Positions 27,743-33,130 of a stretch of DNA of 64,000 nt are shown piece by piece. Every line of letters starts with the position of its first letter. Position 1 is the first letter of the stretch. The position numbers were made by a program, and so were the translations under genes. Below the pieces are notes generated by a model. That model was not told where the DNA came from. It did no database searches and was given only the letters and a program-made list of their open reading frames with translations. The DNA comes from Thermobifida halotolerans (GTDB lineage Bacteria > Actinomycetota > Actinomycetes > Streptosporangiales > Streptosporangiaceae), in contig NZ_CP063196.1 in NCBI RefSeq assembly GCF_003574835.2, forward strand, positions 3,720,001-3,784,000, read 5' to 3'.

Positions 27743-28234
27743 ATGTCCCAGACCTTCGCCACCGCCGACCTGATCGACGCCCACGGCGACGAACTCGCCA
27801 GTTGCGAGACCCAGTTCCGCCAGTTCGGAGGCGTCCGGGCGTTCTTCGGTCCGATCCGCACCGTCAAGTGCCACGAGGACAACGCCCTGGTCAAGGAGAT
27901 CCTCAACCAGCCCGGAGGGGGACGGGTGCTGGTGGTGGACGGCGGCGGCTCGCTGCGGTCGGCGCTGATGGGCGACATGATCGCCGAGGCGGCCGAGCGC
28001 AACGGCTGGGCGGGCGTGGTGATCAACGGTGCGGTGCGCGACGTGGCCGAACTGGCCGGGCTGTCACTGGGAGTCAAGGCACTGGGGTCCAATCCGCGCA
28101 AGTCCGCCAAGGCGGGCGCCGGCGTGGTGGACGGTCCGGTCGCCTTCGGCCAGGTGGTGTTCGCGCCGGGCGCGTGGCTGTACAGCGACGAGGACGGGAT
28201 CGTGGTCAGCGAGCGGGAACTGCCGCTGGACTGA
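27743..28234 (+). CDS. RraA-like protein (ribonuclease E regulator / HMG aldolase family)
   Basis: A 163-residue protein with the RraA fold. Seen motifs are [12 protein letters not shown] at the start, [59 protein letters not shown], and [11 protein letters not shown] near the C-terminus. Family members either inhibit RNase E in E. coli or act as divalent-metal 4-hydroxy-4-methyl-2-oxoglutarate aldolases; the GDMIA...R..D arrangement is that of the aldolase-type active site. ATG 27743 has GGAGACC just upstream and is preferred to the GTG at 27731. Confidence 0.87.
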
Positions 28235-28747
28235 GCCGGCGCCCCCGAGGGGGCGCCGGTGTCGTCGGTGGAGGCCGCGTCCCGACGTGCCCCCCTTTTT
28301 TCCATCTCCCCCTGGTACGCCGGGACGCGGCCCGTCTGTGACGGGTGGACGGAGCATGCCGGGGATGCCCGCCCACCCGGACCTGGACGCGCTCGCCGAC
28401 CACCGCGACCGCAGGGGACGGTCGCCGTCGCCGTCCGAGAGAAGCGGACGCCGCACCTGCCCGGCGGGGCCGGAAAACAGCGCGTACAAACTCTCGGTGA
28501 GCACTCTGCTTCAGAATGTTACTCCCATGAGACGGAAGCGTGGGTCGATTCGCGATTTTCCCCAGACGGATCCCGCAGGACCCGGCGTTCCCGGCCCCGG
28601 AGGCCCGGCCCGCCGTCGCCGACGCTCTGACCGCCATCGGCGCCGCCGCGGCCGGATCTCGCGTTCCGGCCCTGCGGGAAGCCCGGGGCCTGGCAGGATG
28701 AGAAACGCGTGTGCCCCGAGAAGCCGAAGTGGATTTAGGGAGGCGCG
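28235..28747. other. Intergenic region between rraA-like gene and pglX
   Basis: About 510 bases. The start is the rraA terminator hairpin (28236-28259). The part around 28480-28560 is poorer in GC than its surroundings and may hold the pglX promoter, but no clear -35/-10 pair could be fixed. AGGGAGG at 28737-28743 is the ribosome site of pglX. Confidence 0.5.
28236..28259 (+). terminator. Terminator hairpin of the rraA-like gene
   Basis: CCGGCGCCCCC pairs perfectly with GGGGGCGCCGG around a GA loop (11-bp stem), starting two bases after the stop codon. Confidence 0.75.
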
Positions 28748-31700
28748 GTGGCGGGCCGGAGAGACCGAGGCGGGCTACTGGACGACCTACGCCAGCAGGT
28801 CACACTGCTGGAGGACGACCTCCGCGCCCGAAGCGGGGAGGACGAGTGCGCGACCGTCCTGGAAGAGGAGTACCGCGAGGCCCTCGAGGCACAGCGCACC
28901 GCCGCCGCCTACCGGACGTGGCGGGACGAGCGGGTCACCCAGGTGGCGGCGGCGTGGGTGCTGGGAACCCTGTTCGTGCGGTTCTGCGAGGACAACGGAC
29001 TGATCGAGCAGCCCTGGATCGCCGGTCCCGGCGACCGCCTGGACCTGGCCGAGAGCCGGCACCAGGCGTTCTCCGCCACCGCCCCCAACCTCGGCGACCG
29101 CGACTGGCTGGTCGCCGCCTTCATCCACCTCGCGAAGTGCCACCGCACCACCGAAGGACTGTTCAACCGCTCCTACAACCCGCTGTGGCAGATCACCCCC
29201 AGCCACGAGGCGGCCGGCGCCCTGCTCCGGTTCTGGCGCCGCCGCGGCCCCGACGGCGGACCGGTGCACGTCTTCACCGACCCCGACCTGGACACCCGTT
29301 TCCTCGGGGACCTCTACCAGGACCTCAGCGAACACGCGCGCAAGACCTACGCCCTGCTGCGGACCCCCGGGTTCGTCGAGGAGTTCGTCCTCGACCTCAC
29401 CCTGGAACCGGCGATCGAGGAGTTCGGTCTGGATCCGGAACTGGAGGTGCACGACTCCTCCGGCGAGGTCGCCTGGCGGCACAGGGGCCTGCGGACCATC
29501 GACCCGGCGTGCGGCAGCGGCCAGTTCCTCCTCGGCCTGTTCACCCGCATCCTCGCCCGGCACCGCGAGGCCGCGGGGCCGGAGGCCGACGACTGGGAAC
29601 TGGTCCGCAAGACCCTGGAGTCGGTGCACGGCTGCGACAAGAACCCGTTCGCGGTCGGCATCGCCCGGTTCCGCCTGCTCGTCGCCGTGCTGCGGGAGAC
29701 CGGGACCCGGCGACTGGACCAGGCGCCCGACTTTCCCCTCCACGTCGCCGTGGGCGACTCGCTGCTGCACGGCCGGGGCGTGGAGACCATCGCCGACGAC
29801 CTGCTCCCCGCTGGTCGGCGCATGTTCGCCTACACGACCGAGGACGTGTGGGAGCACTCCAGGCGGGTGGACCTGCTGGGCAGCAACAGCTACCACGTGG
29901 TGGTGGCCGACCCGCCCTACACCACCGTCCGGGACAAGCAGGAGAACGCCAACTACCGCTCCGCCTACGACGTCTGCTCGGGCTCCTACGCGCTGTCGGT
30001 GCCGTTCGCCCAGCGGATGTTCGGGCTGGCCACCCGTGAGCACGCGGGCTTCACCGGGCAGATCACCGCCAACTCGTTCATGAAACGCGAGTTCGGCAGG
30101 AGGCTCATCGAGGACTTCTTCGGCCGGAAGGTGAAACTGACCCACGTCATCGACACCTCCGGCGCGTTCGTCCCCGGCCACGGCGCCCCGACCGTCATCC
30201 TCGTCGGACGCAACACCATCCAGGGCTGGGCAGACCCGATCCGGGAGGTTCTGGGCGTGCGCGGGGAACCGAGCCCGCCCGAGGACCCGGCCCAGGGGCT
30301 GGTGTGGCGCTCGATCGTCGAGAACGTGCACCGCCCCGGCATCGAGACCTCATGGGTGAGCGTCCGCAACGGGGACCGCGACCTGCGTATCACGCACCCC
30401 TGGTCGCTCAGCGGCGGAGGCGCCGACGAACTGCGGCGTCGTCTGGAGAGCGCTCCGGAACGCCTCTCGGACCGCGTCGCCGAGATCGGCTTCGGCGGGG
30501 TGCTCCGCGAGGACTGCGCCTACATGGTGGGCGAGGCCGCGCTGGAGCGCGCCCGGATCGGCGCGGAGCACCGGCGGCCGGTCGTGGAGGGCGACTCCGT
30601 CCGCGACTTCCGGATCACCGACGCGGTCGTCTCGCTGTGGCCGTACTCCGCCGCGACGCTCACACCCGCCCTCTCCTTCGAGGCGCAACGCCTCCTCTGG
30701 CCCCGCCGCACCCTGCTGCGCAACCGGTCGGCCTACGGGAGCACCCAGCTCGAGCGCGGCCTGACCTGGTACGAGTACTCGACGTTTCCCGCCGAGCGCT
30801 ACCGTGTCCCGCTGTCCATCACCTACGGGGAGACGGCGACGCACAACCACTTCGTGCTGGACCGGGGCGGGAAGGTCTTCAAGCAGACCGCTCCGGTGGT
30901 CAAGCTCCCGGAGGGGGCCACCGAGGAGGACCACCTGCGGCTGCTCGGGGTGCTGAACTCCTCCACCGCGTGCTTCTGGCTCAAGCAGGTGAGCCAGGGC
31001 AGAAGCGGCGGCGGGCCGGGGCGCACGCTCCTGGAGGAGGCGTGGGAGGAGCGCTACCAGTTCACCCCGACCAAACTCCACGGCTTTCCGCTGCCCACCC
31101 TGCTCCCCCTCGACCTCGGCCGCGCCCTGGACTCCCTCGCCCGGGAGGCCGCCTCCCACGAGCCCTCCGCCGCCGTGGCCGGGGGGGCGCCCACCCGCGG
31201 GAGGCTGGCCGAGGCCAGGGCCGCCGCCGAGTCGGTCCGCCGTCGGATGATCGCCCTGCAGGAGGAGCTCGACTGGCAGGTCTACGGCCTCTACGGGCTG
31301 CTCTCCGACGCCGAGGCCGCGGCCGTGGTCGCCTCCGACCCCTCGAAGACACCCGAGATCAGCCTGGGGGAGCGCGCCTTCGAGATCGTCCTCGCCCGCC
31401 AGATCGCGGTCGGCGACTCCGAGACCGCCTGGTTCTCCCGGCACGGCTCCACCCCCGTCACCGAACTCCCCCGGCACTGGCCCGAGGAGTACCGCAGGGT
31501 CGTGCAGGCCCGTATCGACCTCATCGAGAAGCGCCGCGACCTGGCGCTGGTCGAACGGCCCGAGTGCAAGCGCCGCTGGGCCGAGGAGCCGTGGGAGGGA
31601 CGGGAGGCCGCCGCGCTGCGGTCCTGGCTGCTCAACCGGTGCGAACGGCGTGACCTGTGGTTCGTCTCCCGGGACGGGCGCGACGACGTGCCGCGCGCCA

Positions 31701-32368
31701 TGATCCTGACCCAACTGGCCGACGCCCTCGCCCACGCATCCGACGGAGACGACGTCGTCACGGTCGCCGAGTGGTACGCCGCCGACCACCTGGGCCGCCC
31801 CGGCGCGCCCCTGGTCGAGGTGCTGGAGCGGCTCGTCGCCGACCAGCACGTGCCCTACCTGGCCGCGCACCGCTACAGACCGTCCGGGTTGCGCAAACGC
31901 GCCCGGTGGGAGCAGGTGTGGGCCCAACAGCGCGAGGAGGACCGCACCGGGCGGCGGTTGGACATCCCGGTGCCGCCCAGGTACACCTCCGCCGACTTCC
32001 GACAGCCGTCCTACTGGGCCCTCCGCGGCAGGCTCGACGTGCCGCGGGAGCGGTTCGTCTCCTATCCCGACGCCGCGCCCTCCGGTGGCCCCGCGCTCGT
32101 GGTCGGCTGGGCCGGATGGGACCACGCGCAGCGGGCCGAGGCCCTCATGGACCTCGTCGAGGCCCACTCCGCCACCGAGGACCGGACCCGCGAGCGGATC
32201 ACCCCCCTGCTGGCGGGGGTGCACGAACTCCTGCCGTGGCTGCGCCAGTGGCACGGCTCCCCCGGCCACGGCGGCGGCACGGCCGAACGGACCACCCGGT
32301 GGCTCGCCGACCAGCAGGAGCGCCACCACTTGAGCGAGGACCACCTCACCACCTGGCGACCCGCCTGA
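28748..32368 (+). CDS. pglX: BREX-2 / Pgl adenine-specific DNA methyltransferase PglX (solitary)
   Basis: Large N6-adenine methyltransferase of 1206 residues, the usual PglX size. In BREX type 2 (the Streptomyces phage growth limitation system) PglX methylates host DNA and with PglW, PglY, PglZ and others blocks phage growth. Motif I is IDPACGSGQFL (251-261) and the catalytic motif DPPY is at 388-391 (VVVADPPYTT). Family segments RDKQENANYR, GFTGQITANSFMKREFG and THVIDTSGAFVPGHG all follow in order. The C-terminal third holds specificity-type and helical regions. GTG 28748 has AGGGAGG four bases upstream. None of the other BREX-2 genes is in the window, and core genes flank it. Confidence 0.88.
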   Translation: MAGRRDRGGLLDDLRQQVTLLEDDLRARSGEDECATVLEEEYREALEAQRTAAAYRTWRDERVTQVAAAWVLGTLFVRFCEDNGLIEQPWIAGPGDRLDLAESRHQAFSATAPNLGDRDWLVAAFIHLAKCHRTTEGLFNRSYNPLWQITPSHEAAGALLRFWRRRGPDGGPVHVFTDPDLDTRFLGDLYQDLSEHARKTYALLRTPGFVEEFVLDLTLEPAIEEFGLDPELEVHDSSGEVAWRHRGLRTIDPACGSGQFLLGLFTRILARHREAAGPEADDWELVRKTLESVHGCDKNPFAVGIARFRLLVAVLRETGTRRLDQAPDFPLHVAVGDSLLHGRGVETIADDLLPAGRRMFAYTTEDVWEHSRRVDLLGSNSYHVVVADPPYTTVRDKQENANYRSAYDVCSGSYALSVPFAQRMFGLATREHAGFTGQITANSFMKREFGRRLIEDFFGRKVKLTHVIDTSGAFVPGHGAPTVILVGRNTIQGWADPIREVLGVRGEPSPPEDPAQGLVWRSIVENVHRPGIETSWVSVRNGDRDLRITHPWSLSGGGADELRRRLESAPERLSDRVAEIGFGGVLREDCAYMVGEAALERARIGAEHRRPVVEGDSVRDFRITDAVVSLWPYSAATLTPALSFEAQRLLWPRRTLLRNRSAYGSTQLERGLTWYEYSTFPAERYRVPLSITYGETATHNHFVLDRGGKVFKQTAPVVKLPEGATEEDHLRLLGVLNSSTACFWLKQVSQGRSGGGPGRTLLEEAWEERYQFTPTKLHGFPLPTLLPLDLGRALDSLAREAASHEPSAAVAGGAPTRGRLAEARAAAESVRRRMIALQEELDWQVYGLYGLLSDAEAAAVVASDPSKTPEISLGERAFEIVLARQIAVGDSETAWFSRHGSTPVTELPRHWPEEYRRVVQARIDLIEKRRDLALVERPECKRRWAEEPWEGREAAALRSWLLNRCERRDLWFVSRDGRDDVPRAMILTQLADALAHASDGDDVVTVAEWYAADHLGRPGAPLVEVLERLVADQHVPYLAAHRYRPSGLRKRARWEQVWAQQREEDRTGRRLDIPVPPRYTSADFRQPSYWALRGRLDVPRERFVSYPDAAPSGGPALVVGWAGWDHAQRAEALMDLVEAHSATEDRTRERITPLLAGVHELLPWLRQWHGSPGHGGGTAERTTRWLADQQERHHLSEDHLTTWRPA

Positions 32369-32461: not shown

Positions 32462-33130
32462 TCAGGAGCCGGAGGGGGTGCCGCACACGTCGACGAGGAT
32501 GCTCAGCACCGCGATCGGATCGGGCAACTGGACGGGGCCCTCCGTGGTGAACGGGGAGCGGATCCAGTCGACGGTGCGCCCCGAGGGCAGCAGCGACGGC
32601 GGAGCCGGCACGTAGCTGTCCCGGCAGTGCCAGCGCAGCCCCGCCGTGTCCTCGACCGTCTCGGGAAAGCAGTCGAGGCGGCACGACCACCACTCTTCCT
32701 CGTCGACGGGGGAGCGGGTGGCCACGAAGAACAGGTAGCGCTGGGCGTCCAGCGCCGCGACCGGTCCCGGGTGCAGTCCCGCCCGGTCCATCTGGGCCAT
32801 GGCCATCACCCCCGCGCCGGCGGGCACGTCGAAGACGTCGAAGACCCGCCCCGTCGGCAGGATGATGTTCGCCTCGGGTGCGGAGCTCCACCAGCGCCTG
32901 ATGGCGTCGGGATCGGTGCCGGCCTCCATCGCCCACGCCGCGCTGGTCGGGTGCACGCCCGGCGCCGGACAACCCAGCCGGTCGCAGGTGCACGCGCGCG
33001 GCCCCTCCCGGTCGGGGTGGGCCCCCCGGCACACCGGCCACCCGAGCGCCGCGTACTCCAGCGCGGCGTCGACCATGGCAGCCGGTTTCTGACGGCGGCG
33101 TCTGCGTCTGCCGCCCAGCACACCGACCAT
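32462..33130 (-). CDS. Primase-polymerase (prim-pol)-like N-terminal domain protein
   Basis: A 222-residue protein resembling the bifunctional primase/polymerase domain family without a helicase part. It has ALEYAALGWPVCRGAHP near the N-terminus, cysteines with zinc-type spacing (ACTCDRLGC), WWSSAPEANIILPTGRVFDVFDVP (the prim-pol hydrophobic-D-x-x-D strand), and a C-terminal IRSPFTTEGPVQLPDP. Homologues lie next to hem genes in many actinobacteria. Whether it is catalytic is uncertain, because the second Asp motif is weak. It converges on pglX and precedes hemB on the minus strand. Confidence 0.7.
   Translation of the reverse strand: MVGVLGGRRRRRRQKPAAMVDAALEYAALGWPVCRGAHPDREGPRACTCDRLGCPAPGVHPTSAAWAMEAGTDPDAIRRWWSSAPEANIILPTGRVFDVFDVPAGAGVMAMAQMDRAGLHPGPVAALDAQRYLFFVATRSPVDEEEWWSCRLDCFPETVEDTAGLRWHCRDSYVPAPPSLLPSGRTVDWIRSPFTTEGPVQLPDPIAVLSILVDVCGTPSGS

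Follow-up and report, generated by a model that had tools for sequence, protein, structure and literature searches.

A genus-fixed PglX homologue of Thermobifida is probably a pseudo-methyltransferase and unlikely to serve as a BREX subunit

PglX is regarded as both the writer and the recogniser of bacteriophage exclusion (BREX) systems. Here we describe a PglX homologue encoded in a 64,000-base stretch of Thermobifida halotolerans DNA (contig NZ_CP063196.1, positions 3,720,001 to 3,784,000 of the forward strand; this whole stretch is called the window, and positions are counted from its first base). It is probably a genus-fixed pseudo-methyltransferase, and a role as a BREX subunit is unlikely. 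Its closest described relatives are the PglX proteins of BREX-2 (Pgl) systems, such as SCO6627 of Streptomyces coelicolor. In the account of the S. coelicolor system (PMC4365076), the substitution Y381A within the NPPY motif makes methyltransferase activity almost undetectable and phage resistance is not restored; PglX is also toxic there without PglZ. NPPY occurs too in BrxX of BREX-1, which, according to PMC11842806, has about 5-fold better affinity for its site with S-adenosylmethionine (SAM) and does not methylate when alone. A PglX with SAM and DNA recognition but without motif IV, where NPPY lies, would be a SAM-gated site binder. The open-access literature searched, including passages of a 2026 BREX survey (PMC12839542), shows no catalytically dead or solitary PglX.

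The window contains an intact, full-length BREX-2 PglX homologue, which is the sole BREX gene at its locus. The open reading frame (28748-32368, forward strand) has a GTG start and encodes 1206 amino acids, with no internal stops. Its product matches the NCBIfam model NF033451 (BREX_2_MTaseX) over residues 10-1206 at 1712.6 bits, the cut-off being 400, and the PADLOC models PglX and REase_MTase_IIG at 1568.7 and 1059.6 bits. In Pfam, DUF7008 and Eco57I score above their cut-offs and an MmeI methylase match lies below; an Eco57I-type methylase and DUF7008 are found, and, among Pfam families, no nuclease of the kind fused to the methyltransferase in type IIG restriction enzymes. By family score and length (NF033451) the protein is a BREX-2 PglX, but the CGSGH expected in motif I is missing. 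It shares with BREX-2 PglX proteins the full length, SAM motifs, target-recognition region (TRD) position and DUF7008; unlike them, the clade of the window copy has lost the motif IV asparagine in 4/4 members, as well as H259, Q205 and K1100, and no BREX genes are adjacent. Of the motifs of gamma-class N6-adenine methyltransferases, X, I, II and III are present and the NPPY of motif IV is not. Similarity to BREX-1 PglX/BrxX (PDB 8c45, 9ewz) is confined to the motif I and motif IV regions: phmmer with the window protein found no match in the PDB, and only a profile of a 46-sequence alignment matched. The BREX-1 proteins read CGSGH and NPPY, of which the window protein lacks the H and the N; CamA reads CGCGN and BseCI CGDGE. 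At a threshold of 1e-5, PglW (C-terminal half), PglY, PglZ, BrxD and the second-core helicase have no match in the 64 kb window, and the usual linkage of pglX with pglW, pglY, pglZ, brxD and brxHI is absent; the clusters lie far off on the same contig.

The sequence-only reading of this DNA had named PglX length, a DPACGSG motif I, a DPPY motif and the segments of the PglX family, an absence of BREX-2 partner genes around the locus, a ribosome site of its own and a position between rraA and the prim-pol/hemB genes, all of which are there. It had also called the gene solitary, which is right for the locus and wrong for the genome, where there are 2 further full-length pglX genes and 2 BREX-2 core sets; and full-length, which is right, although the protein departs from the family at 6 of 227 near-invariant PglX positions, including N388 and H259. 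DPPY, which it listed without remark, is an anomaly, both paralogues of the same genome having NPPY. The features of the gene are these (motif names as in general use):

28748..32368, forward strand: PglX-like putative pseudo-methyltransferase, 1206 amino acids (family models; syntenic orthologues in 4/4 Thermobifida)
29360..29362, forward strand: Q205R, altered in 4/4 orthologues (alignment)
29501..29527, forward strand: motif I, DPACGSG-Q-F, residues 252-260, SAM-binding core retained (alignment)
29522-29524, forward strand: codon changed from H259 to Q (alignment)
29909..29920, forward strand: motif IV, DPPY for NPPY, residues 388-391 (alignment)
30440..30838, forward strand: TRD, approximate, residues ~565-697 (divergence and homology, not structure)
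31247..32362, forward strand: DUF7008 C-terminal domain, residues 834-1205 (Pfam)
32045..32047, forward strand: K1100R, within the C-terminal DUF7008, altered in 4/4 orthologues (alignment)

Syntenic orthologues of the window copy are present in 4/4 Thermobifida genomes, itself included, at identities of 75, 73 and 68%; the window genome (5.5 Mb, 2 contigs) is G000, and the other three are G001, G002 and G003. Motif IV reads DPPY in the window protein, SPPH, EPPH and SPPA in the three orthologues, and NPPY in both G000 paralogues, the asparagine being lost in 4/4 orthologues and the tyrosine in 3/4. The tail of motif I reads CGSGQ in the window protein and CGSGE in the other three. In a first set of 115 rows, 106 had both CGSGH and NPPY, the other 9 being the window clade (4 proteins, 2 duplicated) and 3 Streptomyces proteins; with 55 rows added, NPPY was found in 161/170, and the exceptions were again the window clade with its duplicates and 3 Streptomyces proteins (some places are counted twice under two ids in both counts). 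Among the additional Streptomyces hits, motif IV was read in both copies of G630 and of G618, in G723, in the G696 pseudo copy and in those already listed under other ids; the fragments in G080, G121 and G115, and G485, were left out. All seven proteins lacking N388 retain the TP of motif X, DPxCGSGxF and the aspartates of motifs II and III. Near-invariant positions, as used here, are the 227 whose uniformity is 97% or more across 101 NPPY proteins, the set left after removal of 7 rows (4 duplicates, 3 partial); the window protein breaks six of them (Q205R, I214V, H259Q, N388D, T480A and K1100R). The motif changes argue strongly that the SPPH, EPPH and SPPA orthologues are catalytically dead, and with moderate confidence we would say the same of the window protein.

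We nevertheless conclude that the protein remains under selection, if a somewhat relaxed one. In 4/4 species the frame is uninterrupted by stops, and indels come in whole codons. In a codon model with position-specific base frequencies, omega (dN/dS) for the window clade is 0.127, ranging by region from 0.06 to 0.22 (0.22 at residues 561-700, the TRD), and all six pairs fall within 0.09-0.17; by the same method the cluster PglX pair has 0.137, hemB 0.067 and rraA 0.048. The codon method is biased by the high G+C: when the window gene was evolved neutrally and frame-blind in 48 simulated runs, to the G000-G001 divergence only, omega came out at 0.33-0.55 and each lineage acquired an average of 5-9 stops. 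Shuffles at the observed divergence (500 per pair) predict an average of 6-15 stops per pair. G+C at third codon positions (GC3) is 0.94, 0.96, 0.97 and 0.86 in the four orthologues. Because omega is 0.127 against a simulated neutral 0.33-0.55, the gene is not a plain relic, and neither a broken frame nor neutral evolution, the signs of a pseudogene, was found. Among the four orthologues the TRDs share 56-68% identity, whereas the cluster copies of G000 and G002 are only 40% identical there; conservation of the TRD among orthologues fits a fixed recognition role.

The gene is a feature of the genus. rraA was matched in 41/61 family genomes and 20 of these loci were fetched: 2 were from Thermobifida and had pglX, 11 had prim-pol beside rraA, and 7 had no prim-pol in the stretch. 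pglX was absent from 11/11 rraA/prim-pol loci outside Thermobifida. In trees the window clade has full support and groups with Thermobifida cluster PglX. Most simply, a BREX-2 pglX would have been inserted between rraA and prim-pol/hemB in the Thermobifida lineage before the four species split, and would have been inherited since. An origin as a phage-borne decoy was considered and set aside: no match was found in 50,697 phage records (1e-20), and one viral contig only carried a PglX (L177), with NPPY, CGSGH and 41% identity. Among 72,556 plasmid records 35 matched at 1e-30, 6 of them covering at least 80% of the query, all at less than 60% identity.

The idea that the genome has no BREX proved false. 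G000 has three full-length pglX genes, the window copy included. One belongs to a complete BREX-2 cluster at 4,593,332-4,611,952, made up of brxD, pglZ, pglY, an XRE regulator, pglW and its own pglX, whose product has NPPY and 63% identity to the window copy; PglY of this cluster scores 1015 bits, below the cut-off of 1700, and no brxHI was called in it. A second BREX-2 core (G000:C1:104288-118867; L056, L057) consists of pglW, pglY, pglZ and brxD, followed, where brxHI would be expected, by a helicase-like gene of 711 amino acids that was identified from its position, without a family search. It has no pglX in the 35 kb examined, and the gap between pglW and pglY is just 302 bases. The third pglX (G000:C1:3493721-3497389), 55% identical to the window copy, is isolated, adjoins an XRE regulator and has NPPY and H259; both this regulator and the XRE regulator of the complete cluster match the Sco1979 model below cut-off. 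This type of pglX and the second type of core are both present in G000, G001 and G003 and both absent from G002, so the distant NPPY pglX is likely to be the partner of the pglX-less core. Because the core lacks pglX while the co-occurring NPPY pglX lies elsewhere on the chromosome, the second system seems to be split, with core and pglX at separate sites. PglZ of the second-type cores is 36-37% identical to PglZ of the complete cluster; in G001 other genes separate pglY from pglW, which is 14 kb upstream, and in G003 pglW is on a separate contig. Next to pglY in G003 is a 3' remnant of pglX (G003:C17:288881-289054, L061), the full-length pglX being on a different contig. By eye, the distant pglX copies are accompanied by a repeated cassette of an XRE regulator and an ATPase-like gene (L003/L008, L064, L065, L061), in several places with a DUF397-like small protein. 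Adjoining the complete cluster is what looks by eye, without a family search, like a type III CRISPR operon (G000:C1:4579914-4592465; L009, L005) with reverse-transcriptase-like and Cas2-like genes.

The residues lost by the window clade outside motif IV track the presence of BREX partners. Once exact duplicates were dropped, 161 locus rows gave 151 distinct loci, and H259 is present in 96/96 of those with PglY or PglZ in the stretch versus 43/55 of those without; where both flanks are at least 5.9 kb the figures are 47/47 versus 20/29 (p 7e-5). K1100 is lost in 12/12 loci without H259 and kept in 135/137 with it, and Q205 is found in 139/139 with H259 and 2/12 without. PglX proteins beside PglY/PglZ thus keep H259, Q205 and K1100, with two exceptions at K1100. 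From this we infer that H259 and K1100 are marks of a PglX that works with BREX partners. The 12 loci lacking H259 fall into three groups: the window clade, a clade associated with HEC-01 described below, and a separate group in which NPPY is intact. This last group comprises PglX-like methyltransferases (L216, L217, L224, L233, L236, L237, L238) that have lost H259 and K1100, and PglY/PglZ were not seen in the stretches examined. Both it and the window clade are without H259 and K1100, but only the group has NPPY, in 7/7.

A second clade with a changed motif IV occurs in Streptomyces. Its members L124, L126 and L129 read EPPF, EPPS and EPPF in motif IV and CGSGT in motif I, and a single common clade for the window and Streptomyces types is rejected by the approximately unbiased (AU) test (p 4e-7). 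Of the 15 and 26 positions broken by majority in the two clades, nine are common to both (hypergeometric p 2.7e-6, assuming random draw), and overlaps in control groups were 0/8, 1/4 and 0/5. The type was found in 4/246 genomes of the genus, two of which are L129 (G630) and L126 (G723) again; across 394 genomes elsewhere in the class the best match was 51%. In 5/5 distinct genomes (L124, L126, L129, G618, G696) the gene for this PglX lies divergently next to those for an AAA ATPase and a DUF4276-like protein, and the AAA/DUF4276 pairs of L124 and L129 match PADLOC HEC-01A and HEC-01B. The five are not five independent cases, because the L126 and G618 copies are close. As in the window clade, N388, H259 and K1100 are lost in 5/5 (to E, T and R, respectively) and the SAM motifs are kept in the 3 checked; the Streptomyces proteins differ in their separate origin and in the adjacent partner genes. 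Omega for L124, L126 and L129 is 0.199. The module directly adjoins a BREX-2 cluster that encodes a PglX of its own in two genomes, G630 (NPPY) and G696 (motif not read), and in G618 a BREX-2 cluster with an NPPY PglX lies ~100 kb from it. The module rows, including L278, L279 and L280, have the AAA/DUF4276 pair with a PglX reading EPP(F/S/Y).

The explanation that we favour, with reasonable though not high confidence, is that the window protein is a PglX pseudo-methyltransferase, uncoupled from BREX and maintained as a SAM-dependent DNA-site binder. Its clade has lost the asparagine of motif IV, and in three species the tyrosine too, plus H259, Q205 and K1100; the SAM-binding motifs, TRD and C-terminal domain have been retained under purifying selection. 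Such a protein would still bind SAM and one type of DNA site without methylating it, and its role as the BREX-2 writer would be gone. It could then be a site-specific DNA binder or sensor for some partner, or a roadblock at sites, and the Streptomyces clade beside its ATPase/DUF4276 pair (5/5) is our model for such reuse. More tentatively, dead PglX might be a recurrent class, with at least two origins, of SAM-gated readers of unmodified DNA sites for another effector, this being HEC-01A/B in Streptomyces and some other partner in Thermobifida.

Several observations weigh against this interpretation. The constraint on the window clade is partly relaxed: uncorrected Nei-Gojobori (NG86) dN/dS is 0.34-0.64, compared with 0.13-0.24 in hemB and 0.12-0.24 in the NPPY paralogues; the distant NPPY pglX pairs have a still lower codon-model omega, 0.03-0.06 (pairwise, bounded branch lengths; two of three at the bound); and G001-G003 break 28, 23 and 34 near-invariant positions, against a median of 2 and at most 18 in leave-one-out controls. 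With six breaks against these numbers, the window protein is the least changed of its clade, yet its losses include the active-site core, and the other three species have drifted further. The shuffles reach a minimum of 0 stops in 2/6 pairs. Some active methyltransferases of other classes have DPPY, and Y391 is retained, so it is possible that the window protein, with D388 and Y391, keeps methyltransferase activity. As to the trees, 3 rows of the window clade drew a flag for unusual composition, and support for its sister relation to cluster PglX is 94 and 88 (Shimodaira-Hasegawa-like approximate likelihood ratio test, SH-aLRT). Flanks are short at many of the loci counted as lacking PglY/PglZ; two rows with H259, L138 (a partial protein) and L141, are without K1100 too; and the H259 losses amount to about three independent events, since the 12 loci belong to three groups. 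In the overlap test, two of five control groups had no broken positions and hence test nothing, and the G696 member of the Streptomyces clade keeps Q205 and Y391 (EPPY). A HEC-01B-type partner was rejected for Thermobifida, a HEC-01B-like gene or DUF4276 relative being matched in 0/4 genomes by a search without a positive control.

How do other explanations fare? If DPPY were functional in the window species, the gene could encode an active solitary methyltransferase that marks its own motif outside BREX. Its intact motifs X, I, II and III, its retained Y391 and the change of only 6/227 positions would fit, as would the related group without nearby PglY/PglZ, which keeps NPPY despite losing H259 and K1100. 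That group has, however, retained both the N and the Y in 7/7 rows, and the same-locus orthologues have come to read SPPH, EPPH and SPPA while pairwise omega stays at 0.09-0.17, which makes this explanation unlikely. The sequence-only reading had offered a methyltransferase with a new role: the new role fits, and methyltransferase is hardly the word in the SPPH, EPPH and SPPA species. We are similarly doubtful that the protein is a BREX modulator, a dead PglX binding PglX sites or BREX proteins as a decoy for, or brake on, active systems. All four carrier genomes do hold BREX-2 core genes and an NPPY PglX as well, a brake could pay given the toxicity that PglX has in S. coelicolor when PglZ is missing, the Streptomyces pseudo-PglX abuts a BREX-2 cluster in 2/5 genomes, and the window TRD resembles, by eye, that of a G001 NPPY pglX. 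Yet the residues kept beside PglY/PglZ (H259, Q205 and, with two exceptions, K1100) are lost in the window copy, and the paralogues of its own genome are not among the six nearest TRDs.

That the gene is a slowly eroding relic of an earlier BREX-2 insertion at the locus is very unlikely, even though the catalytic residues are lost, three orthologues break 23-34 near-invariant positions and the NG86 ratios exceed those of hemB and the NPPY paralogues. No stop has appeared in 4/4 lineages and indels are in whole codons, where an average of 6-15 stops per pair is expected (minimum 0 in 2/6); omega in six pairs lies below the neutral range (simulated at the G000-G001 divergence only); and three species have a GC3 of 0.94-0.97, the fourth one of 0.86. 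The suggestion of a remnant made from the sequence is on these grounds unsupported. Its author had also asked for a whole-genome search for PglW/Y/Z and BrxD, which turned up the complete cluster and the pglX-less second core, and for a comparison of neighbours, in which the copy proved fixed at the same site in 4/4 Thermobifida and absent from the 11 loci outside. A complete BREX-2 operon with another PglX, there named as showing this copy to be an inactive paralogue, does exist; "inactive paralogue" is probably right for catalysis and wrong for the gene as a whole. Finally, the window copy might supply PglX in trans to the second core, which has no pglX of its own and scant room for one between pglW and pglY. 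This is extremely unlikely: the other NPPY, H259 pglX tracks that core, and the window copy is present in G002, which has no such core. The related proposal of a subunit for a BREX cluster elsewhere is improbable as well; such clusters are present, yet one of them already encodes an NPPY PglX, the pglX-less core pairs with a different NPPY pglX, and the window copy is without the H259 that is kept in 96/96 sampled loci with PglY or PglZ in the stretch.

Around the gene are these further features, of which the names rraA, hemB and hemL are ones that we assume without a family search:

27743..28234, forward strand: rraA-like gene, left border of the insertion (presumed name)
28262..28382, forward strand: two-hairpin element (RNA or DNA), near-invariant, upstream of the pglX-like gene (comparison of 4 species)
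28738..28743, forward strand: ribosome-binding site GGGAGG, 4 bases before GTG (sequence; GGAGG identical in 4 species)
32462..33076, reverse strand: Prim-Pol gene, right-hand neighbour and right border of the insertion (Pfam match)

The spacer between rraA and pglX has blocks almost identical in the four Thermobifida species, namely the two-hairpin element and three short blocks (28507-28522, 28539-28562 and 28689-28718), the latter possible promoter or regulator sites. The element has 38 predicted pairs, 3 with a compensatory change among the four species, and a C/T-rich loop that is nearly invariant, with one base missing in G002. Near-full matches to it occur in 4/120 family genomes, all Thermobifida and at this locus only, and 30-33-base matches in three others; at the 11 rraA loci that lack pglX, even the best ungapped match to each spacer block is weak. 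No Rfam family matched the element at E up to 1, and a scan for sigma-70 promoters and terminators found nothing. A Guanidine-II riboswitch match (28774-28823) did not reach the gathering score and lies within the coding frame, and was taken as chance.

A selected PglX copy without its catalytic residues would separate recognition from methylation in nature, and thus be a natural test of the role of PglX when writing is impossible. The copy also points to residues, H259 and K1100, that may be tied to BREX membership. That such proteins recur next to HEC-01A/B in Streptomyces suggests that other defence candidates can recruit PglX for recognition, as a subunit, in what would be a new architecture.

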